Source: Verrucomicrobiia bacterium (lineage in GTDB: Bacteria > Verrucomicrobiota > Verrucomicrobiia > Limisphaerales > Pedosphaeraceae). From it: DNA of 64,000 nt. Below, piece after piece: positions 2,090-15,196 of the stretch; position 1 is the stretch's first letter, and each line of letters opens with the position of its first letter. The DNA lies in contig DATAUW010000012.1 in NCBI GenBank assembly GCA_036268055.1, positions 186,001-250,000 of the forward strand, read 5' to 3'. A program made the translations under genes and the position numbers. The notes under the pieces are model-generated. The model had not been told where the DNA came from and did no database searches. It saw nothing but the letters and a program-made list of their open reading frames with translations.

Positions 2090-5000
2090 ATGAAATTCAA
2101 AAGCCTTCGCTTTTTAATTGCCATCACTTTGTCGCTGCTCGCGTTCAGCCAGTTCGCGTCCGCACAAAGCACGGCCTTCACTTACCAGGGCCGGCTCAAT
2201 GCCAACGGCGCGCCCGCGACGGGAAATTACGATTTGCGCTTCGGCCTGTACGCGGGCAGTTCTGGCGGCTCGCCCGTCGGCTCGCTCGTGACGAGCCCCG
2301 GGGTCGCGGTGTCGGGTGGCTTGTTCACCACCACGCTCGATTTTGGCAATGTGTTCAGCGGCACGAATTATTTCCTCGAAATCGGCGTGCGCACGGCTGG
2401 CAGCACGGGCGTGTTCACCACGCTGGCGCCGCGTCAGCCGATCACGCCGGAGCCGTACGCACTTTTCGCGCCCACGGCCGGCACGATCACGGGCGTCCTG
2501 AGCACGAATAATCTTCCGACGAATGTCGCGCTGCTCAACAACGCGAATTTCTCCGGCACGATCAACGGTTCCGCGCTCAACCTCGGAGCGAGCAATCTGG
2601 TCGCGCCCTTGACGGTGGTGCCGAAGATGCCTATCGCCGCGGTTGGTTCAGTGGCGACGCTCGCGCAACCGCTCTCGCTCGCGGTGCTCGGCCGTTATGT
2701 GACGGTGGTGGATGCGAATGGCAACGCCCTGCAAATCGTGGACGCGAGCAACCCGACAAACCCGGTGGTGGTGGGCGCGGCGACGACAGGAGCGTATCCG
2801 GTTTCAATCGCCACGGCGGGCCGATTCGCGTACGTGGTGAATTACACCGACAGCACCATGCAAATTTTCGACATCAGCAATCCTTCGAGCCCGGTGGCGA
2901 CGGGAATTGTGGGCACGGGCGCGCAGCCTTATTCATTGGCGGTTTCGGGACGTTATGTTTACGTGGCGAATTTTGGCGCGAGCACCTTGCAAGTATTGGA
3001 TGCGAGCAATCCGACCAGGCCGGTGAGCGTGGGTTCGGTGAGCACAGGTTCAGGGCCGGTGTCGGTCGCGGTCGCGGGACGCTATGCGTACGTGGGAAAT
3101 TTCACGGCAAATAATCTCCAGGTTTTCGATTTGAATAATCCGGCGAACCCCGCGCTCGTGGGAACGGTGGCCGCGGGAAGCGGGCCTTCTTCGGTGGCGG
3201 TCATGGGGCGTTACGCGGTCGTCGGCACGACCAATGCGCTGCAAATTTTTGATGTTAAAAGTCCCACAGCTCCGGTTTTGGCCGGAAGCATCGCGGCAAC
3301 CGGCGGCCCGCGGTTTGCCATGCTCTCGGACCGCTATATATATGTGGCGAATGAAGGCGGTTCGACCAATGGCCTGCAACTGTTCGACATCAGCAATCCC
3401 GCCGCGCCGGCGCTGGTGGGTTCCACGCCAACGGCCAATTCGCCTTCGGACGTCGTGGTGTCGGGCCGTTACGCGTATGTCGTGGATTACAACAGCGACC
3501 TGTTGCAAATTTTCGATTTGGGCGGCGCTTACTTGCAGCAGTTGGAAGCGGGGAGTATCGAGACGGCCAACTTGCAAATCCGCGATTCCGCGACGGTGGC
3601 GAATGGGTTGAATGTGCGCGGCGGTTTCACGGCGTCGGGCAGCGCGCGCATCTCGGGCGGCTTGAGCGTGGATAACGGCAAAATCACCGGCGATGGTTCG
3701 GGACTTTCCAATTTGGTTTTCACCTCCACGACTTCGACGGCGATCACGAATTTCACCGGGCCGCTGGTCGGTGATGTGACGGGCACGCAATCGGCGACGG
3801 TGGTGAGCACGGTCGGCGGGGTGAATGCCGCGAGCATCGCGACGGGCGCGACGGCGGCGAATGCGGCGACGAGCGCGAACAGTCCCGGCGCTATTGTCAG
3901 CCGCGATGGCAGCGGCAATTTCAGCGCGGGCACGATCACGGGATCATTTGCGGGCAACGGCTCCGGGTTGACGAGCGTGCCAGCGGGCAATCTTACTGGC
4001 GTCTTGCCGAATTCCGCGCTGGCGGGAACGTATTCGAGCGCGTTGCAAATCACGAATACGAACAACGTCATCGTGGGCGCGTTCACTGGCAACGGCGCGG
4101 GTCTGACGAACTTGAACATCGCGGCGGGGAGCGTGGCGAATTTCACCGGTTCGCTCGCGGGTGACGTGACCGGCACGCAAGGCGCGACGACCGTCAGCAA
4201 AGTCGGCGGGGTTTCGGCGATTGGCGTGGCGACCGGCGTGAGCGCGGCTCTCAGTGCATCGAGCGCGAATACTCCTTCGCGGATCGTCACGCGCGATGGC
4301 ACCGGCAGTTTTTCCGCAGGCACGATCACAGCGGCATTCAGTGGCAACGGCGGTGGTCTGACGAATCTTTCCGCCGGAAATTTGACGGGCACTGTGCCGC
4401 AAAGCGCGTTGTCGGGAAGTTATTCCAACGCGCTTTCGTTGCCCAACACCAACAACGTGATCGTGGGCACGTTCACCGGCAACGGCGCGGGGTTGACCAA
4501 CTTGAATGTCGCGGCGGCGAGCGTGGCGAATTTCACTGGCTCGCTCGCGGGTGACGTGACGGGGACGCAAGGCGCAACGACCGTCAGTAAAGTCGGCGGC
4601 GTTTCGGCAATCGGCGTGGCGACCGGCGTGAGTGCGGCACTGAGCGCCACGAGCGTAAACACTCCGTCGCGGATCGTGACGCGCGACGGCACGGGCAGCT
4701 TTTCCGCGGGCACGATCACTGGCGCATTCTCCGGCAACGGCGGTGGGTTGACGAATGTCAGCGCCACGACGGCGACGAATTTCTCAGGCGCATTGGCGGG
4801 TGATGTGACGGGAATTCAAAGCGCGACCACGGTGGGCCGCGTTGGTGGAGTGACCGCGGCAAATGTCGCGAGTGGAGCGAGCGCGGCGAATGCGGCGACC
4901 AGCTTGAACACGCCTTCGACACTCGTCAGTCGTGATGCTTCGGGAAATTTCAGCGCGGGAACGATTACGGGTTCGTTTATTGGAAATGGCGCGGGGGTGG

Positions 5001-8000
5001 CTAATCTGAATGCGGCGAATCTTACTGGCACATTGCCGCAGGCCTTACTCAGTGGCACGTATTCCAATGCGCTTTCGCTGACAAATGTTACGAATATCAT
5101 CGCGGGAACTTTTACTGGCAGCGGCGCGGGCTTGAGCGGATTGAGTGCGGTCAACGCTACGAATTTTTCCGGGCCGCTGGCGGGTGATGTCACGGGAACG
5201 CAAGGCGCAACGGTGGTGGGTCATGTCGGTGGAGTGACGGCGGCGAATCTTGCGACGGGCGCGACCGCGGCGAATGCGGCGACGAGTGTGAATACGCCGG
5301 GCACGATTGTGACGCGCGATGTATCAGGCAACTTCAGCGCGGGAACCATCACCGGCGCATTCTCCGGCAACGGCGGCGGGTTGACGAATGTCAGCGCCAC
5401 GGCTGCGACAAATTTTTCCGGCGCACTGGCAGGCGATGTGACCGGAACTCAAAGTGCGACAGTCGTGGGCCGCGTCGGCGGTGTGACTGCTGCAAATGTC
5501 GCGAGTGGCGCGAATGCCGCGAATACCGCGACGAGTGTGAACACGCCTTCGACACTCGTCAGTCGTGATGCCTCGGGTAATTTCAGCGCGGGAACGATCA
5601 CGGGTTCGTTCGTTGGAAATGGCGCGGGGGTGGCCAATCTGAATGCGGCGAATCTTACCGGCATCCTTCCGCAAGCTTCAATCAGCGGTACGTATTCCAA
5701 TGCGCTTTCGCTTACTAATGTTACTAACATCATCGCGGGAACTTTTACCGGCAGCGGCGCGGGCTTGACTGGCGTCAGTTCCACGACAGCGACGAACTTC
5801 ACGGGAACGCTCGCGGGTGATGTCACGGGAACGCAAGGTGCGACGGTGGTCGGCCGCGTCGGCGGTGTCACGGCGGCGAATGTTGCCACGGGAGCGAATG
5901 CGGCCAATGCGGCGACGAGCGTGAATACGCCGGGCACGATTGTGACGCGCGATGTTTCGGGAAGTTTCAGCGCGGGAAATATCACGGGCGTGTTCATTGG
6001 CAACGGCGGCGGGTTAACGAATGTCAGCGCGACGACGGCGACGAATTTCTCCGGCGCACTCGCGGGCGATGTCACGGGCACGCAGGGAGCGACGACAGTT
6101 TCCAGAGTTGCCGGAGTCGCCGCAGCCACAATCGCAAGCGGCGCGCAGGCGGCGAATGGAGCCACCTTTTCCACCGTGCCTTCGACCATCGTCAGCCGCG
6201 ATGCCAACGGCAGTTTCAGTGCGACAACGATCACGGCCAATTTTGTTGGCAATGGCGCGGGTCTTACCAACCTCAACCTGAATGCGACGAACCTGACGGG
6301 CATCCTGCCGCAGTCTGCGCTTGCGGGGACTTACTCGAACGCGCTTTCACTAACGAATGTTACGAACCTCATCGCAGGAACTTTCACCGGCAACGGCGCA
6401 GGATTGACTGGATTGAATGTAGCGACCAACACGGCGGCGAATTTTTCCGGGCCGCTGGCGGGTGATGTCTCCGGCATACAAGGCGCGACGATTGTTGGCC
6501 GCGTCGGCGGTGTTACTGCGGCGAATGTCGCGAGCGGCGCGAATGCGGCGAATGCGGCAACGAGCGCGAACACGCCGGGCACGATTGTGACGCGCGATTC
6601 GGCTGGCAGTTTCAACGCCGGCACGGTCACGGGAGCTTTCATCGGCAACGGCGGCGGGTTAACGAATGTTAGCGCCACGACGGCGACGAATTTCTCCGGC
6701 GCACTCGCGGGTGATGTCACCGGCACGCAGGGAGCGACGACGGTTTCTCGAATCGCTGGAGTTGCGGCGACCACGATTGCAAACGGCGCGCAGGCGGCGA
6801 ACGGCGCAACATCCTCCACCGTGCCTTCCACCATCGTCAGCCGCGATGCCAACGGCAGTTTCAGTGCGACAACGATTACGGCCAATTTTGTCGGTAACGG
6901 CGCGGGTCTTACTAACCTCAATTTGAACGCGACGAACCTGACGGGCATCCTGCCGCAGTCCGCGCTTGCCGGGACTTACTCGAACGCGCTCTCGCTGACG
7001 AATACCACGAATATTTTTGCGGGCACGTTCACCGGCAACGGCGCAGGTCTGACCGGTTTGAACGTGGCGACAAACACGGCGGCGAATTTTTCCGGGCCGC
7101 TGGCGGGTGACGTTACAGGAACGCAAGGCGCGACGATCGTTGGCCGCGTTGGTGGAGTAACGGCGGCGAATGTCGCGAGCGGCGCGAATGCGGCCAATGC
7201 AGCGACCAGCGTGAATACGCCAGGCACGATTGTGACGCGCGATGTATCAGGCAACTTCAGCGCGGGAACCATTACTGGCATATTTTCCGGCAACGGCGGC
7301 GGATTGACGAATGTCAGCGCCACGACCGCGACGAATTTCTCCGGCACGCTTGCGGGTGATGTGACGGGCACGCAAGGCGCGACAGTGGTCATGACCGTTG
7401 GCGGCGTGCCGTCCACGATCGTGGCGCAGGATGCGTCGCGGCTCAGCGCCGCCACGAGCCTCTCGGCTCCGGGCACGCTCATCACGCGCGACGTGAGCAG
7501 TGGGTTCGCGGCGGGGCCGATCACGGCGTCGTTCATCGGCGATGGCGCGGGTCTTACGAATCTTAATCTGAATGCCACGAACCTCACGGGCGTTCTGCCG
7601 CAATCCGCGCTCGCGGGGACTTACTCGAACGCCCTCTCGCTGACGAATACCACGAATATTTTTGTGGGCACATTCACTGGCAACGGCGCGGGATTGACCG
7701 GCTTGAATGTGGCGACGAACACGGCGGCGAATTTCTCCGGGCCACTGGCGGGTGATGTCACGGGAACGCAAGGCGCGACGATTGTTGGCCGCGTCGGCGG
7801 TGTTACTGCGGCGAATGTTGCCACGGGCGCGAATGCGGCGAACGCGGCCACGAGCGCGAACACGGCGGGCACGATTGTGACGCGGGATACGTCGGGCAGT
7901 TTCAGCGCGGGCACGATCACTGGCGCGTTCTCGGGAAATGGCGGTGGCTTGACGAATGTTACGTCGGCGAATTTCTCAGGCGGCCTGGCGGGTGATGTTA

Positions 8001-11000
8001 TCGGCACGCAGACCACGACCAGCGTGAGATTCGTCGGTGGTGTCGCTGCCACGACGGTCGCAAACGGCGCGATCGCGGCCAACGCCGCAACGAACGCGAA
8101 TGTGATCGGCACGATCGTCAAGCGCGATGCCTCCGGGAATTTTAGCGCCAGCAACATCGTGGCGTCATTCACCGGCAACGGCGCGGGTCTTACCAATCTT
8201 CCCGCGAGCAATATTGTTGGCACGTTGCCTGGCGGCGCGTTGTCCGGCGTTTATTCCAATGCGCTCTCGCTGACCAACACGACCAACCTAATCGCGGGCA
8301 CGTTCACCGGCAATGGCGCGGGCTTGACTGGATTGAGCGCGGTCACGACCACGAATTTCTCCGGCCCGCTCGCGGGTGATGTGACGGGCACGCAAGGCGC
8401 AACGGTGGTCGGCCATGTCGGCGGATTGACCGCTGCGAACGTGACGGCCGGCGTGAATGCGGCGAATGCGGCGACTAGTGCCAACACGCCTTCGACCCTG
8501 GTCAGTCGCGATGCCTCGGGCAATTTCAGTGCGGGAACCATCACCGGCGCGTTCACCGGCAACGGCGGCGGGTTGACGAATGTCAGTGCGACGGCCGCGA
8601 CGAACTTCACTGGCACACTCGCGGGTGATGTCACTGGAACCCAGGGTGCGACGGCGGTTGTTAAAATTGACGGAGTCACGGCGGCCACGGTTGTGAGCGG
8701 CGCGCAGGCGGCGAACGGCGCGACTTTCCTGACCGTGCCCTCCACCATCGTCAGCCGCGATGCCAACGGCAGTTTCAGCGCCACGACCATCACCGCCAAT
8801 TTCATTGGCGACGGTTCGGGCCTCACCAATCTCAACCTGAACGCCACGAACCTCACCGGCATCCTGCCGCAGTCCGCGCTCGCCGGCACTTATTCGAACG
8901 CGCTCTCGCTGACCAACACGACGAACCTGATTGCGGGAACATTCACTGGCAACGGCGCTGGCTTGACGAACTTAAACATCGCGTCGGGAACGGTCGCCAA
9001 TTTTACCGGCGCGTTGAGCGGTGATGTCAACGGCACGCAAGGCGAGACGCTCGTGAGCAAAGTCGGCGGCGTGACCGCCGCGAGCGTGGCCAGCGGCGTA
9101 AATGCCGCGAACGCCGCGACCAGCGCCAATACTCCCAGCACCATCGTCACCCGCGATGCCTCCGGCAATTTCAGTGCCGGAACGATCACCGGCATCTTCA
9201 CTGGCAACGGTTCGGGTTTGACCTCTCTTAACGCCTCCAATCTCAGCGGCACGATTCCCACGACCAGCATCGCCGCCGGATCAATCGTAAATTCGCAACT
9301 GATGAGCAGTTCCATCACGATCACTCCGGGCAACGGCATCGCCAGCGCGGGCACGGTATCGCTCGGCGGCAGCGTCACGCTCAATACTACGGCCACACCC
9401 GGCAATACTTTCAACGCCATCGTCAGCCGCGATGACGGCGGCAGCTTCTCGGCCAGCGGCATTAATTTAAGCTCATCATTGAATCTGCCAGTGAGCACGG
9501 GCGGCCCGATTATTTTCTCGGGCATGAATTCGCTGATTTCCGATGCCGGCACGGGAAACTTTTTTGCGGGCCCCAACGCTGGCAACGTCACACTCACCGG
9601 TTCGCAGAACACCGGCCTGGGCGATTCCTCGCTGCTCAACATCAGCACCGGCGCATCGAACACCGCAGCGGGCAGCGCCACCTTGCAGGGCGACACCACC
9701 GGCAGCGGCAACACCGCGATTGGCCAATCCGCCCTTAATCAAACCACGGGTTCGTTCAACACCGCGCTCGGCTATAACGCGGGCGGTTTCACCACAAGCG
9801 GCTCGAACAATATTTTCCTCGGCGCGAACGCGGGTGATAACACCGATCCCGCGGCCTCCGGCCAATTCATCGCCGGCTCATCTATCGCGCCGATCGCAAA
9901 TGTTTTCTTCGGCAACGGCCAGAGCAACACCGCTCCGCAAAGCGTCACGATCCAGGCGACGTCCGGTGCCGGTCCCGGCACGGCCGGCGCGAACTTGAAC
10001 CTCGCTGCCGGGGCTGGCACCGGCGACAATTCAGGCGGTTCATTGGTATTCCTGACGTCGCCAGTCCCGACTCCGGCGCCGGCTGGTCATGCCAATCCTT
10101 TGATGGAACAAATGCGCATTACTTCCACCGGTCAGGTGGGCATCGGAACCAATAATCCAGCGACCGCGCTGCAAGTCGTGGGAACCGTGACCGCGACGGC
10201 TTTTGTCGGCGATGGTTCGGGGCTGACTAATTTGCCGGGCGGCATGGGCGGCGGTGGAACGCTTGCGGGCGATGTCTCCGGGCCGGCTACCAATAACGTG
10301 GTCAACACCGTGGGCGGTGTGTCGTCGGAATTGATCGCCAACGTGGTTGGCACCGTGCAGAACGCTTCCAGCACGGGCGGCAGCGGCAACCTGGTTTCGC
10401 GTGATGGCGAAGGCAATTTCTCCGCCAATGTAATCAGCGCCAGCTTCGCCGGTGATGGCACCGCGGTTACGAACCTTCAAGCGGCGAACCTGGTCGGGGT
10501 ATTGCCGAACACCAATCTGGCGGGTGTGTATTCGAGCGCGTTGCAACTGACGAACGCGAACAATGTCATCGCGGGCACGTTCACGGGAACCGTGGCGCAA
10601 AATGGCGTCAATCTGAATACCGGCACGCCCAACTTCGCGCCGTTGACGGTGGTGCCCGATGCCACCAGCCCGGCGATCACCACCATGTCCACCGGCGCGC
10701 CCGGCGGAGCGATGGTTATTTACGGCCGCTACGGCTTTTTCGGGGATGTCCCGGAAAGGTTGCTGAAAGTCTATGACTTCAGCAATCCGCAAGCTCCCGT
10801 CCAGTTAGGCACCACCGAATTGCCGCTCGCCCCGATTTTCCTGACCACGGATGGAAACTTCATTTACATAGCCGATTCATCGCTGAATGTCCTCGTCATG
10901 GACGTGACGAATCCAGCCCATCCAAGCCAGCTTGGCACGGGATCGTTCAGTGGCGATGGAGGCGTTACTACGTCACTCACAGTGGCGGGAAATTATCTCT

Positions 11001-13627
11001 ATATTGGCGGAGCGAACAGCGGAGTGGACACGATAATCACGGTGGATATTTCCAATCCTTTTTCCCCGAACCAGGTGGGCAGCGGAACTTTTGGTTCTGG
11101 CACCGCTTTCATCGCCAAGAGCGGCCGCTATGTTTATGCGGTGGATCCGACCGACAATTCCCTGGGCGCATTTGACATGAGTGATCCGACCAATCCTCAG
11201 TTGGCGGGCAACGGTACTACCGGCAACATCCCCTCAGCCATCGCCGTTTCGGGTCGCTATGCTTATGTTGCCAATGATGGCGATACCAATATGCAGATCA
11301 TGGACGTCAGCAATCCGGAAAATATCCACAGCGTGGGAACGGTTCCCACGGTGGGCTTGCCGATCTCGATTGCGGTGGCGGATCACTACGCTTACGTGGC
11401 CGGTGGCAGCGGCAGCGGATTTCTCCAAATTTTCGACGTGAGCAATCCCACTGCGCCAGTGAGTCTCGGCAGCCGCTCGGCGGCGAACAGCGCCCGGTCG
11501 TTGACAGTCTCGGGCCGCTACGCATTTTTGATCAGTTCAAATAACGCTTCGATGCAGGTCTTCGATCTCGGTGGCAGTTTTCTCCAGCAGGTTGAGGCGG
11601 GGACCATCGAGACGGGCAACCTTCAGGTGCGTGATAATGTGAACCTCGGCGGTGATCTCAATGTTCGCGGGGGATTGAGCGCGAGCGATGCCCGTTTTAC
11701 CGGCAACGTGGGAATTCACGGCGACATCGAGATTTCCGGCGTTATCAACGCCGACCAATTCAACGGCAGCGTGAATGGCGCAAATATTGGCGGGACACTT
11801 AATGCGTTTGCGTTGTCAGGCGCTTACGCTCAGCCGCTGCAATTCACTTCGATGGAGAACACCTTCAGCGGCGCCTTTACCGGCGACGGTTCGGGGCTGA
11901 CCGGTTTGCAATTCTCGAGCTTCAGCGGAATCCTTCCGGACGCGGACCTCTCGGGAACCTATTCACAGGCGCTAAACATGGTGAATATGGGGAATGTCTT
12001 TGGCGGCACATTTATCGGAACGGTTTCGCAAGGCGGTGTGACGCTTACGTCTGGTTCCGGGCCGGGTTTGTCGGCCGTACCGGAATCTACGAGTCCGCAG
12101 ATTGGTGCGGTGGACACAGGGGGACCGGTCGTCACGGTCGCCGTTTTTGGGCGCTATGCTTATGTGGGCGACGCGCAGGAGAACTTGCTGTTGGTTTATG
12201 ACGTCAGCGTTCCCTCTTCGCCGCAACTCATCGCCCAGTCGGAAATCGAAGTTTCTCCGAACATGCTCGCGACCGACGGCAACTATGTTTACGTCGCGGA
12301 CCTTGACTTGAATTTTGAGGCGATTGATGTCACCGATCCTTCGCAACCGGTCAACCTCGATCGCGTATCGCTCAATGACATGGGATTTGCCACGTCGCTA
12401 AGTATCGCCGGGCATTATGCGTACGTGGGTGGCAACGATGGCGAGGCGGACATTGTGTATGTTGTGGATATTTCCAATCCGAGCACGCCGGTTCTGACTG
12501 GCAGCACGAGTTTTGGTTTTGGCGCAAGCCTTCTCGCGCAGGACGGGCGCTATGTCTTCGGCGTGGATGAAAATGACAACACCATCGCGGGTGTGAATGT
12601 TTCGGATCCAACGAACCCGAGCGTCATTGGCACGACCGGCATCGGCGCGAACCCGGTCGGCATCGCGGTTTCGGGCCGTTACGCTTACGTGGTCAACGCG
12701 GGTGACGGCAATTTACAGGTCGTGGACATCAGCAATCCCGGCAATCTGACCAGCGTCAGCACGACGCCCACGGCGGGCACGCCTTCGAGTATTGTGGTTG
12801 CCGATCATTATGCGTATGTCATCGGCGAGAGTTCCGGCGGCTTCCTCCAGATTTTTGATGTGAGCAATCCCACAACGCCGGTGAGTCTCGGCAGCCGCTC
12901 GACTGCCGATTCGCCGATCCAGGTAGTGGTTTCTGGCCGCTACGCCTTTCTCGTCAGTTCGAATGACCACGAATTTCAAGTCTTCGACCTCGGCGGCGCG
13001 GACCTGGCGCAAGTGGAAGCGGCCTCGATTGAGGCGGGCAATGTGCAGGTGCGCAACAATGTGAACATCGGCAACGACCTCGCCGTGCGCGGCGGCATCA
13101 GCGGCGCCAATGGCCAGATCGGCGGAGATTTGGGGGTTCAGGGAAATGTCACCGTTGTTGGCAATGTCGGCATCGGAACCGACACGCCGGGTTTCACGCT
13201 TCAGGTCAACGGGACCGTGGCCGGTGTGGGCGCTTACAACAATATTTCCGACGAGCGTTACAAACAGAACATCACGCCGCTGACCCACGCGCTCGATAAG
13301 ATCATGAACATCGAAGGCGTGGAATATAATTGGCGCACGAACGAATTCCCGAAGATCAATTTTGATCACGGCACGCAGATTGGATTCATCGCGCAACAGC
13401 TTAAGGACGTGTTGCCCGAAGCCGTCACGCAGGATAGCTCCGGCTATTATTCCATCGCTTACAGCAAAGTCATTCCGGTGCTCGTGGAAGCCATGAAGGA
13501 CCAGCAAAAAGAAATCGCGAACAAAGATGCCGAGTTGTCGGCCATCAAACAGCATGACGCCGAAGTTGAAGCGCGTTTGACGGCGTTGGAAAATGCGCTG
13601 AAGACGGTTGCGGAAAATAAACGCTAA
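2090..13627 (+). CDS. Giant secreted fibre-like protein: LVIVD propellers, internal repeats, S74 chaperone
   Basis: About 3845 residues. ATG 2090 is preferred over an in-frame upstream start because it has an AGGA ribosome site and begins a clear signal peptide (MKFKSLRFLIAITLSLLAF, cleavage after ASA near residue 25). Order: N-terminal FTYQGRLN module; seven-bladed LVIVD beta-propeller (about 184-484); 17 tandem repeats of about 82 or 128 residues carrying LAGDVTGTQ, VSRD.SGNFSA and GNGAGLTNL (about 554-2385); YadA-head-like NTAIG/NTALG stretch (about 2500-2595); one isolated repeat copy; second and third seven-bladed propellers (about 2877-3164 and 3354-3637); C-terminal Peptidase_S74 domain with SDERYK (Ser3720, Lys3725) and a coiled-coil tail. 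S74 domains trimerise fibres and then cut themselves off. Likely a secreted trimeric fibre or surface adhesin; the target is unknown. Confidence 0.9.
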   Translation: MKFKSLRFLIAITLSLLAFSQFASAQSTAFTYQGRLNANGAPATGNYDLRFGLYAGSSGGSPVGSLVTSPGVAVSGGLFTTTLDFGNVFSGTNYFLEIGVRTAGSTGVFTTLAPRQPITPEPYALFAPTAGTITGVLSTNNLPTNVALLNNANFSGTINGSALNLGASNLVAPLTVVPKMPIAAVGSVATLAQPLSLAVLGRYVTVVDANGNALQIVDASNPTNPVVVGAATTGAYPVSIATAGRFAYVVNYTDSTMQIFDISNPSSPVATGIVGTGAQPYSLAVSGRYVYVANFGASTLQVLDASNPTRPVSVGSVSTGSGPVSVAVAGRYAYVGNFTANNLQVFDLNNPANPALVGTVAAGSGPSSVAVMGRYAVVGTTNALQIFDVKSPTAPVLAGSIAATGGPRFAMLSDRYIYVANEGGSTNGLQLFDISNPAAPALVGSTPTANSPSDVVVSGRYAYVVDYNSDLLQIFDLGGAYLQQLEAGSIETANLQIRDSATVANGLNVRGGFTASGSARISGGLSVDNGKITGDGSGLSNLVFTSTTSTAITNFTGPLVGDVTGTQSATVVSTVGGVNAASIATGATAANAATSANSPGAIVSRDGSGNFSAGTITGSFAGNGSGLTSVPAGNLTGVLPNSALAGTYSSALQITNTNNVIVGAFTGNGAGLTNLNIAAGSVANFTGSLAGDVTGTQGATTVSKVGGVSAIGVATGVSAALSASSANTPSRIVTRDGTGSFSAGTITAAFSGNGGGLTNLSAGNLTGTVPQSALSGSYSNALSLPNTNNVIVGTFTGNGAGLTNLNVAAASVANFTGSLAGDVTGTQGATTVSKVGGVSAIGVATGVSAALSATSVNTPSRIVTRDGTGSFSAGTITGAFSGNGGGLTNVSATTATNFSGALAGDVTGIQSATTVGRVGGVTAANVASGASAANAATSLNTPSTLVSRDASGNFSAGTITGSFIGNGAGVANLNAANLTGTLPQALLSGTYSNALSLTNVTNIIAGTFTGSGAGLSGLSAVNATNFSGPLAGDVTGTQGATVVGHVGGVTAANLATGATAANAATSVNTPGTIVTRDVSGNFSAGTITGAFSGNGGGLTNVSATAATNFSGALAGDVTGTQSATVVGRVGGVTAANVASGANAANTATSVNTPSTLVSRDASGNFSAGTITGSFVGNGAGVANLNAANLTGILPQASISGTYSNALSLTNVTNIIAGTFTGSGAGLTGVSSTTATNFTGTLAGDVTGTQGATVVGRVGGVTAANVATGANAANAATSVNTPGTIVTRDVSGSFSAGNITGVFIGNGGGLTNVSATTATNFSGALAGDVTGTQGATTVSRVAGVAAATIASGAQAANGATFSTVPSTIVSRDANGSFSATTITANFVGNGAGLTNLNLNATNLTGILPQSALAGTYSNALSLTNVTNLIAGTFTGNGAGLTGLNVATNTAANFSGPLAGDVSGIQGATIVGRVGGVTAANVASGANAANAATSANTPGTIVTRDSAGSFNAGTVTGAFIGNGGGLTNVSATTATNFSGALAGDVTGTQGATTVSRIAGVAATTIANGAQAANGATSSTVPSTIVSRDANGSFSATTITANFVGNGAGLTNLNLNATNLTGILPQSALAGTYSNALSLTNTTNIFAGTFTGNGAGLTGLNVATNTAANFSGPLAGDVTGTQGATIVGRVGGVTAANVASGANAANAATSVNTPGTIVTRDVSGNFSAGTITGIFSGNGGGLTNVSATTATNFSGTLAGDVTGTQGATVVMTVGGVPSTIVAQDASRLSAATSLSAPGTLITRDVSSGFAAGPITASFIGDGAGLTNLNLNATNLTGVLPQSALAGTYSNALSLTNTTNIFVGTFTGNGAGLTGLNVATNTAANFSGPLAGDVTGTQGATIVGRVGGVTAANVATGANAANAATSANTAGTIVTRDTSGSFSAGTITGAFSGNGGGLTNVTSANFSGGLAGDVIGTQTTTSVRFVGGVAATTVANGAIAANAATNANVIGTIVKRDASGNFSASNIVASFTGNGAGLTNLPASNIVGTLPGGALSGVYSNALSLTNTTNLIAGTFTGNGAGLTGLSAVTTTNFSGPLAGDVTGTQGATVVGHVGGLTAANVTAGVNAANAATSANTPSTLVSRDASGNFSAGTITGAFTGNGGGLTNVSATAATNFTGTLAGDVTGTQGATAVVKIDGVTAATVVSGAQAANGATFLTVPSTIVSRDANGSFSATTITANFIGDGSGLTNLNLNATNLTGILPQSALAGTYSNALSLTNTTNLIAGTFTGNGAGLTNLNIASGTVANFTGALSGDVNGTQGETLVSKVGGVTAASVASGVNAANAATSANTPSTIVTRDASGNFSAGTITGIFTGNGSGLTSLNASNLSGTIPTTSIAAGSIVNSQLMSSSITITPGNGIASAGTVSLGGSVTLNTTATPGNTFNAIVSRDDGGSFSASGINLSSSLNLPVSTGGPIIFSGMNSLISDAGTGNFFAGPNAGNVTLTGSQNTGLGDSSLLNISTGASNTAAGSATLQGDTTGSGNTAIGQSALNQTTGSFNTALGYNAGGFTTSGSNNIFLGANAGDNTDPAASGQFIAGSSIAPIANVFFGNGQSNTAPQSVTIQATSGAGPGTAGANLNLAAGAGTGDNSGGSLVFLTSPVPTPAPAGHANPLMEQMRITSTGQVGIGTNNPATALQVVGTVTATAFVGDGSGLTNLPGGMGGGGTLAGDVSGPATNNVVNTVGGVSSELIANVVGTVQNASSTGGSGNLVSRDGEGNFSANVISASFAGDGTAVTNLQAANLVGVLPNTNLAGVYSSALQLTNANNVIAGTFTGTVAQNGVNLNTGTPNFAPLTVVPDATSPAITTMSTGAPGGAMVIYGRYGFFGDVPERLLKVYDFSNPQAPVQLGTTELPLAPIFLTTDGNFIYIADSSLNVLVMDVTNPAHPSQLGTGSFSGDGGVTTSLTVAGNYLYIGGANSGVDTIITVDISNPFSPNQVGSGTFGSGTAFIAKSGRYVYAVDPTDNSLGAFDMSDPTNPQLAGNGTTGNIPSAIAVSGRYAYVANDGDTNMQIMDVSNPENIHSVGTVPTVGLPISIAVADHYAYVAGGSGSGFLQIFDVSNPTAPVSLGSRSAANSARSLTVSGRYAFLISSNNASMQVFDLGGSFLQQVEAGTIETGNLQVRDNVNLGGDLNVRGGLSASDARFTGNVGIHGDIEISGVINADQFNGSVNGANIGGTLNAFALSGAYAQPLQFTSMENTFSGAFTGDGSGLTGLQFSSFSGILPDADLSGTYSQALNMVNMGNVFGGTFIGTVSQGGVTLTSGSGPGLSAVPESTSPQIGAVDTGGPVVTVAVFGRYAYVGDAQENLLLVYDVSVPSSPQLIAQSEIEVSPNMLATDGNYVYVADLDLNFEAIDVTDPSQPVNLDRVSLNDMGFATSLSIAGHYAYVGGNDGEADIVYVVDISNPSTPVLTGSTSFGFGASLLAQDGRYVFGVDENDNTIAGVNVSDPTNPSVIGTTGIGANPVGIAVSGRYAYVVNAGDGNLQVVDISNPGNLTSVSTTPTAGTPSSIVVADHYAYVIGESSGGFLQIFDVSNPTTPVSLGSRSTADSPIQVVVSGRYAFLVSSNDHEFQVFDLGGADLAQVEAASIEAGNVQVRNNVNIGNDLAVRGGISGANGQIGGDLGVQGNVTVVGNVGIGTDTPGFTLQVNGTVAGVGAYNNISDERYKQNITPLTHALDKIMNIEGVEYNWRTNEFPKINFDHGTQIGFIAQQLKDVLPEAVTQDSSGYYSIAYSKVIPVLVEAMKDQQKEIANKDAELSAIKQHDAEVEARLTALENALKTVAENKR
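3749..9240 (+). repeat. Higher-order coding repeat array (17 units) inside the giant gene
   Basis: Seventeen consecutive units begin with NF[ST]G.LAGDVTGTQ or a variant and continue through VGGV, a TPSTIVSRD-type stretch and GNG.GLTN. From unit 2 to unit 16 a short unit (about 82 residues) mostly alternates with a long unit (about 128 residues) that adds an NLTG.LPQSALAGTYSNAL segment. The result is a dimeric higher-order period of roughly 625-645 bases. Successive dimers are close to identical at the DNA level, suggesting recent duplication or gene conversion. A further diverged copy lies at about 10255-10600. Confidence 0.9.
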
Positions 13628-14828: not shown

Positions 14829-15161
14829 ATGAAAAAAATTATTTTAGCGATGACTCTTCTGGGATTTGTAGCGACACAAGCGCCCACCGCAAAAGCGCAC
14901 AGTTTCCCCGTTGCAGCCGCGGTAATCGGCGGTGTCACGGTCGGCGCGGTTGTCGCTGATGTGGTCACTCACCCGGTCTATTACGCCCCGGCTCCGGTGG
15001 TGTACGCGCCCGCGCCGGTTGCGGTGGCTTATGCGCCTGCGCCCGTGGTCTATACCCAGCCCGGGTATGTCTGCGCGCCGGTCGTGACTTACGGCTTCGG
15101 CTTTGGCCGTCCCGTCTATGGTGGATATTATCATGGTTATCACGGCCGTTATTGGCGCTGA
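14829..15161 (+). CDS. Small secreted YAPAPV-repeat protein
   Basis: 110 residues, function unknown. A signal peptide (MKKIILAMTLLGFVATQ, cleavage near AKA-H at residue 23) is followed by a hydrophobic Ala/Gly/Val stretch. Then comes a Pro/Tyr/Val region with several YAPAPV copies, and a Gly/Tyr/His-rich tail ending GYHGRYWR. The composition suggests a small cell-envelope or matrix protein. Leader context AAAGGCAAATATG has no clear Shine-Dalgarno sequence. A strong terminator follows at 15197, so it is probably a single-gene transcript. Confidence 0.75.
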   Translation: MKKIILAMTLLGFVATQAPTAKAHSFPVAAAVIGGVTVGAVVADVVTHPVYYAPAPVVYAPAPVAVAYAPAPVVYTQPGYVCAPVVTYGFGFGRPVYGGYYHGYHGRYWR

Positions 15162-15196
15162 GTGATTGAGAATTGAGGAACCGAGAAAAATGCACT

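Follow-up and report, generated by a model that had tools for sequence, protein, structure and literature searches.

Background

The closest described counterparts of the protein analyzed here are the MAT (mosaic adhesive trimer) fibers of Bdellovibrio bacteriovorus, such as Bd3182, which are described as a signal peptide followed by a beta-rich domain and a long beta fiber (PMC10769870). That account gives MATs a typical length of about 1,000 amino acids and a role in predation, and places an S74 domain with the motif SDxxxK at the C-terminus of 13 of 21 Bdellovibrio MATs, the tips varying by member; it puts the Bd3182 fiber at about 550 Å and records that Bd3182 cleaves itself at S782, which the S782A mutant does not (PMC10769870). 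The K1F endosialidase is described as a homotrimer in which a propeller is combined with a beta-helix stalk and with a C-terminal chaperone that is removed by cleavage (PMC12632334); its propeller is a sialidase and is accompanied by a phage-attachment domain (PMC12632334, PMC4901313), and an arrangement of propellers around a stem is likewise on record for trimeric receptor-binding proteins (PMC4901313). A further likeness is to the LVIVD-repeat surface proteins (PF08309), a term used in the abstract of PMC2447325, with which the protein analyzed here shares LVIVD repeats and probable export. Among eukaryotes, an S74 (ICA) domain is found in MYRF, a membrane-bound transcription factor rather than a fiber, in which S578 and K583 are the counterparts of the endosialidase catalytic dyad (PMC3742443).

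Here we analyze a gene in a stretch of 64,000 nucleotides from a bacterium of the order Limisphaerales (Verrucomicrobiota); this whole stretch is called the window below. Its product shows, in an unusually large and rearranged form, a design already described for phage spikes and for the fibers with which Bdellovibrio binds prey, and we consider it likely that the gene encodes a secreted adhesive fiber of MAT-like kind. The protein shares with the MATs the signal peptide with a beta-rich domain immediately behind it, a long predicted beta fiber, the C-terminal S74 domain with SDxxxK and the variation of tips from member to member (PMC10769870). It differs in being about four times longer, in its LVIVD propellers (the word "propeller" does not occur in the main text of PMC10769870), and in an N-terminal domain (N-domain) that falls below the cut-off of the curated MAT model.

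The gene and its neighborhood

A single uninterrupted frame runs on the + strand from the ATG at position 2090 to the stop at 13627 and encodes 3845 residues (Table 1), as the original prediction had held. A longer frame from a TTG at 1898 is also open; the ATG at 2090 is the start of a signal-peptide-like sequence and has AGGA just 5' of it. The proposed signal peptide likewise stood up, with a mean hydropathy of +2.03 over residues 8-22 and a cleavage site after ASA recognized by eye. The protein contains no cysteine. At 3928 codons from stop to stop, this frame exceeds all others listed with an S74 match in 116 genomes, the window's genome included; the second-longest of those listed has 1734 codons, some frames being broken by contig ends. 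It is the only S74 gene in its genome.

Table 1. Features of the protein and their positions in the window
Feature	Position	Strand	Residues	Basis and remarks
Signal peptide	2090..2164	+	1-25	Sequence and hydropathy; cleavage after ASA by eye
N-terminal beta domain, MAT-like	2165..2482	+	26-131 (~106)	Family A4, hhalign; six strands in model
LVIVD propeller 1, seven blades	2636..3529	+	183-480	Pfam LVIVD; 28-strand model
Stalk motif 1 after propeller 1, FDLGGAYLQQLEAG...LNVRGG	3512..3625	+	475-512	Alignment A1
Repetitive shaft, 17 LxGDVxGxQ units	3746..9289	+	553-2400	
NTAxG-type stretch (called YadA-head-like)	9545..9874	+	2486-2595	By eye, without Pfam support
Internal tip-like loop VGIGTNNPATALQV (VGIGTNNP)	10136..10186	+	2683-2699	Sequence; no S74 domain after it
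LVIVD propeller 2	10676..11575	+	2863-3162	Pfam; 52% identity to propeller 3
Stalk motif 2	11561..11671	+	3158-3194	Alignment A1
LVIVD propeller 3, seven blades	12098..13000	+	3337-3637	28-strand model; solved-propeller matches
Stalk motif 3	12983..13093	+	3632-3668	Alignment A1
Stalk tip with VGIGTDTPGFTLQVNGTV (VGIGTDTP)	13154..13219	+	3689-3710	Aligned with MYRF structure 7dc3
Peptidase_S74 chaperone	13247..13489	+	3720-3800	PF13884
C-terminal long helix of chaperone	13457..13624	+	3790-3845	Model

Upstream, on the same strand, an alcohol dehydrogenase gene ends 202 bases from the fiber gene; downstream lies a metallo-hydrolase gene in the opposite orientation. Pfam reports no phage family among 10 neighboring ORFs within the first ~33 kb of the window. 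When 10 neighbors from this region were compared with PHROGs, seven matched families that are classed as "other" (dehydrogenases and a hydrolase) or as of "unknown function", three had no match, and no structural or packaging family appeared. For the neighbors tested, the earlier statement that no phage gene lies nearby thus holds, and the gene, for which confinement to prophages had been named as a refuting result, was not found in a prophage. A short frame at 14830-15162 of the window has a signal-like start and PVYYAPAPVVYAPAP-type repeats.

Relationship to phage proteins

The protein could be a domesticated tail fiber, taken whole from a phage and now serving as a host adhesin or as the fiber of a phage-derived particle. 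Its C-terminal part does find phage counterparts: in a tblastn search with a query reaching from propeller 3 to S74, 924 of 50,697 phage records matched, and the best 20 of these 924 start at query residue 277 or beyond, so that they consist mainly of stalk tip and S74. Moreover, phrog_22523 (unknown function) matches the propellers (E 1.8e-62), phrog_33119, a long-tail-fiber family, matches the C-terminus (E 5.2e-16), and BFVD yields a weak structural match to A0A6J5KKT3, a phage protein named for an intramolecular chaperone domain (E 2.5e-8). However, the best-ranked phage record covers 42% of the C-terminal query and none of the 924 covers 80%, while the N-domain together with propeller 1 has no match in any phage record at E<=0.001. 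The signal peptide and the 10 neighbors without a structural family also oppose a phage origin. Viral contigs point the same way, as just one of 38 pattern matches to the N-domain encodes a relative (L169), in a frame that lacks S74 by our own profile. A domesticated phage fiber is consequently very unlikely in our assessment. Judged from sequence, the phage likeness lies at the S74 end, except that propeller families are known in viruses as well.

The C-terminal 538 residues gave 10 pattern matches and no relative in viral contigs, and the propeller profile found three loci on two contigs, the fetched parts of which contain neither S74 nor N-domain at E<=0.001 (one reaches 0.0017). A prophage origin was rejected on the neighbors, the phage records and the viral contigs. 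The relative in L169 (3435-6281, on a contig of the viral collection) is an N-domain protein with an end that looks Kelch-like by eye; it lies near HTH and HNH genes and is therefore possibly at a provirus edge. A viral contig of 42.9 kb has LVIVD-type propeller coding at each end (L181 and L182), as if the contig were circular; neither S74 nor N-domain was seen in the parts of it that were fetched.

The S74 chaperone and the propellers

The S74 domain of the original prediction is well supported, with Peptidase_S74 (PF13884) scoring 63.5 bits against a cut-off of 22 over residues 3720-3780 and the SDxxxK motif intact as SDERYK (S3720 at 13247-13249, K3725 at 13262-13264). The serine and lysine stand five residues apart, the same spacing as in MYRF S578/K583, and the likeness to MYRF extends to the S74 domain itself and a stalk tip of the form VGIxTDxP (PMC3742443; 7dc3). 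Among solved structures, the MYRF ICA domain (7dc3, E 4e-7) and a phage tail fiber (8jov, E 2.9e-4) are matched by the S74 domain taken together with the stalk tip. The SDxxxK string is present, within the match or the 40 residues before it, in 65 of 68 distinct S74 frames of the fetched loci, which were found with an S74 profile made in this analysis. From the conserved motif, a self-cut of the window protein before S3720 is to be expected.

Pfam LVIVD matches the protein at E 3.2e-93 in 17 stretches. Single-chain models built from 16-row alignments (mean pLDDT 84.1 for the C part and 81.7 for the N part, pTM 0.61-0.62, stalk parts at low confidence) contain 28 strands in propeller 1 and 28 in propeller 3, with a block pLDDT of 81-98 over these two propellers; we count these strands as seven blades of four each. 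Three seven-bladed LVIVD propellers had been predicted. All three are present, and the blade count stands in the models of propellers 1 and 3; propeller 2 with its stalk is 52% identical, over 366 columns, to propeller 3 with its stalk. The propellers alone are 42% (1 and 2), 40% (1 and 3) and 53% (2 and 3) identical. LVIVD-repeat surface proteins are not known to carry S74 or MAT-like parts.

The best solved match of the C-part model is YncE (Z 36.2, rmsd 1.6, 277 aligned), with WD40 proteins close behind; the structure matches are propellers throughout, and bear on the propeller region alone. The order propeller, stalk, S74 is that of the K1F endosialidase (PMC12632334), which raises the prospect of an endosialidase-like enzyme, bound at the surface and acting on glycans, whose propellers would cut a polymer at three tiers of active sites. 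Unlike the K1F enzyme, the window protein starts with a signal peptide and has seven-bladed LVIVD propellers, three per chain; at E<=0.1 Pfam lists five families for it, none of them a sialidase or BNR family. The YncE and WD40 matches, for their part, indicate a fold rather than a function. We regard such an enzyme as unlikely, and infer that the propellers bind a ligand.

The shaft and the NTAxG stretch

The first two spacings of the LxGDVxGxQ units are 130 residues, after which spacings of 80-83 alternate with 128-132, making a super-repeat of ~211 residues. Seven super-repeats that were compared are 69-92% identical in protein and 70-86% in DNA. Since they are at most 86% identical in DNA, a false expansion of the shaft in the assembly is not obvious; assembly may nonetheless have inflated the repeat number. 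Neither the internal stalks nor the VGIGTNNP loop is followed by an S74 domain.

The stretch that had been called YadA-head-like could not be upheld as such, because residues 2466-2595 scanned alone match no Pfam family at E<=1, and for the same reason its NTAxG motifs are a reading by eye. In the whole protein, neither the YadA head nor the YadA-type C-terminal membrane anchor is listed by Pfam at E<=0.1, and Pfam reports no outer-membrane anchor or secretion partner in it. On these Pfam results, the protein is not classed as a trimeric autotransporter of the YadA type.

The N-terminal domain and its indirect link to MATs

None of the 17 members of family A4, to which the N-domain belongs, has a Pfam family in this domain. 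Against the NCBIfam model Bdello_MAT_N (NF053851), 10 of the 17 reach E<=0.1, the best at 0.0018; the window's own N-domain gives no match at E<=0.1, and its genome none at E<=0.001. At the latter threshold the model matches in 23 of 58 genomes around the window, as against 0 of 14 controls, with a best value of 1.1e-12 and some matches partial; its cut-off is exceeded in none of the 58. The E-values against it for five proteins of related genomes are 1e-12, 4.1e-13, 6.9e-10, 5.9e-11 and 3.8e-10. Among the other five N-domain proteins of the window's genome, one (L175) matches weakly and partially (E 0.001) and four do not match. The five proteins of related genomes and two G008-cluster genes that match the model at about 1e-8 make up a seven-row family, which hhalign aligns with the A4 family of the window at probability 99.0 and E 6.4e-18.

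These comparisons suggest that the N-domain is a distant homolog of the MAT N-domain, connected to it through intermediates. The link is indirect because the window's N-domain and its genome give no match to NF053851 at the thresholds used and none of the 58 genomes exceeds its cut-off, and as the N-domain scores below the cut-off we do not file it in the curated Bdello_MAT_N subfamily. Sequence comparison of the N-domain with solved structures gave a weak match to 4mkm, a surface-anchored protein (E 2.1e-4, although none of its stretches passes singly; three lie at 0.31-0.41), which hints at a similar sandwich. The original prediction passed over this domain, which would tie the protein, indirectly, to MAT fibers rather than to phages. 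In a separate locus (L086, G008:C171:1-20000), at least four genes within 20 kb encode N-domains with sub-cut-off matches to the Bdellovibrio MAT model, and the contig also has S74 matches.

The distant, indirect homology of the N-domain to prey-handling fibers, together with the shared S74 cap, would be consistent with a fiber that seizes prey bacteria in the manner of Bdellovibrio MATs. However, the N-domain is present in 205 of 313 genomes of the order (E<=1e-5), and we know of no predation in this order. As nothing examined points to predation, the predatory role that had been suggested was not borne out, and we consider it extremely improbable.

Distribution and probable exchange of tips

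With six close N-domains as queries against named genomes, 276 relatives were found, and the best 80 of these 276, in 78 loci, were kept: 76 of the loci are from Verrucomicrobiota, one is from Chloroflexi and one from Planctomycetota. Together with the viral locus L169 they hold 103 N-domain frames, 88 of them complete in their locus; these 88 were picked by N-domain similarity and include near-copies. S74 is found in 27 of the 88, a count that is the same by our own profile and by Pfam. Other tips, overlapping in their Pfam assignments, are sortilin-like (8), Kelch (7), FG-GAP (6), FGE-sulfatase (3) and YadA_head (2), and in all 49 Pfam families occur across the last <=450 residues of these frames. 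LVIVD, by our own profile, occurs in two of the 88 and is joined by S74 in one, so that the pairing of propeller and S74 is rare.

The window's genome encodes six N-domain proteins, one of which has S74. The five others (L171-L175) lie on other contigs and have other ends: for L174 Pfam gives a sortilin match that is weak and below threshold, and for the remaining four it reports no family at E<=0.01. By eye, the ends of L172 and L173 look TNF/C1q-like, without a Pfam match. Within the fetched loci, the N-domains nearest to that of the window protein are at most 63% identical, the nearest tip is that of L071 (56%) and the nearest propeller that of L073 (41%); the nearest N-domains belong to different proteins from the nearest tip or propeller, as an exchange of parts would predict.

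A model of the fiber and its implications

We infer surface export, trimerization, self-cleavage, adhesion and the kind of ligand as follows. The MAT-like chain would be exported via its signal peptide, with the N-domain staying beside the cell surface. By analogy with known systems the fiber is probably trimeric, and the repeated shaft would form an intertwined beta fiber of three chains, from which the LVIVD propellers would protrude in groups of three, the first tier close to the cell and the other two towards the tip. The S74 domain would gather the three chains, drive folding of the stalk and finally release itself by a cut before Ser3720. The mature chain would then have ~3694 residues, and propellers 2 and 3, which would lie close to its tip, would be the probable ligand-binding parts, the ligand being most likely a glycan. 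Analogy with K1F and the stem-propeller proteins would give nine propellers in three tiers on three chains, and scaling Bd3182 by the residues outside the propellers puts the fiber, as a rough guess, at 100-200 nm.

The findings suggest that the plan of the prey-handling fibers of Bdellovibrio is, in distant form, common in this order of Verrucomicrobia, which is known here mostly from assembled genomes and of which one genome has six such proteins with differing tips. This set of six offers testable candidates for sticking to polymers or cells, and the giant protein is a naturally occurring case in which propellers recur along a single S74 fiber. More tentatively, and as an idea that could well prove wrong, Verrucomicrobia of the subdivision 3 / Limisphaerales kind might possess a large MAT branch that attaches to polymers or particles and not to prey, with this protein as its giant form: a fiber of perhaps 100-200 nm that would bear three tiers of seven-bladed propellers, nine in all, and would have either converged on or borrowed the endosialidase plan. 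In the open literature searched, we found nothing on S74 with LVIVD among the matches listed, and nothing on endosialidase-chaperone or tail-fiber-domain proteins in Verrucomicrobia, or on Limisphaer adhesins. MATs from bacteria other than Bdellovibrio are tabulated with PMC10769870 and may overlap with the present group.

Siblings of the window protein

A profile of propeller plus stalk, run at E<=1e-40 against 387 genomes of the phylum, finds the window's genome alone among the matches listed; at E<=1e-20 it matches 69 of 320 genomes of the order. Among the matches listed, the stalk end (position 341-342) is reached in G269, G251, G074 and G212 and in the window's genome. The G269 frame and one G212 frame stop at a contig end and were left out of the S74-bearing count; a second G212 frame starts at a contig end and has no S74 match at its own end.

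The search of related genomes for the same domain order, which had been proposed as a check, found it in L071, from another genome of the order (G074). This frame of 1154 open codons encodes an N-domain, two propellers, two stalks and S74; its stalk-to-S74 part is 52% identical to that of the window protein over 188 columns. It differs from the window protein in having two propellers and no long repeat shaft, and its neighbors are a dehydratase D-component gene and a PIN gene. In L074 (1756 codons), the N-domain is accompanied by a single propeller and its stalk; the GDVTGTQGATVV shaft is similar, NTAxG stretches are present, and the S74 domain is of the SDRNAK type. L073, which is cut by a contig end, has an N-domain and three propeller regions.

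Two further frames may be recorded. In L087 (2756-6106), an N-domain, NTAxG repeats, collagen-like GPxG repeats and S74 occur in one chain. A frame of 4434 codons with LVIVD propellers (L079:190-13491, G115:C527) showed neither N-domain nor S74 with our own profiles.
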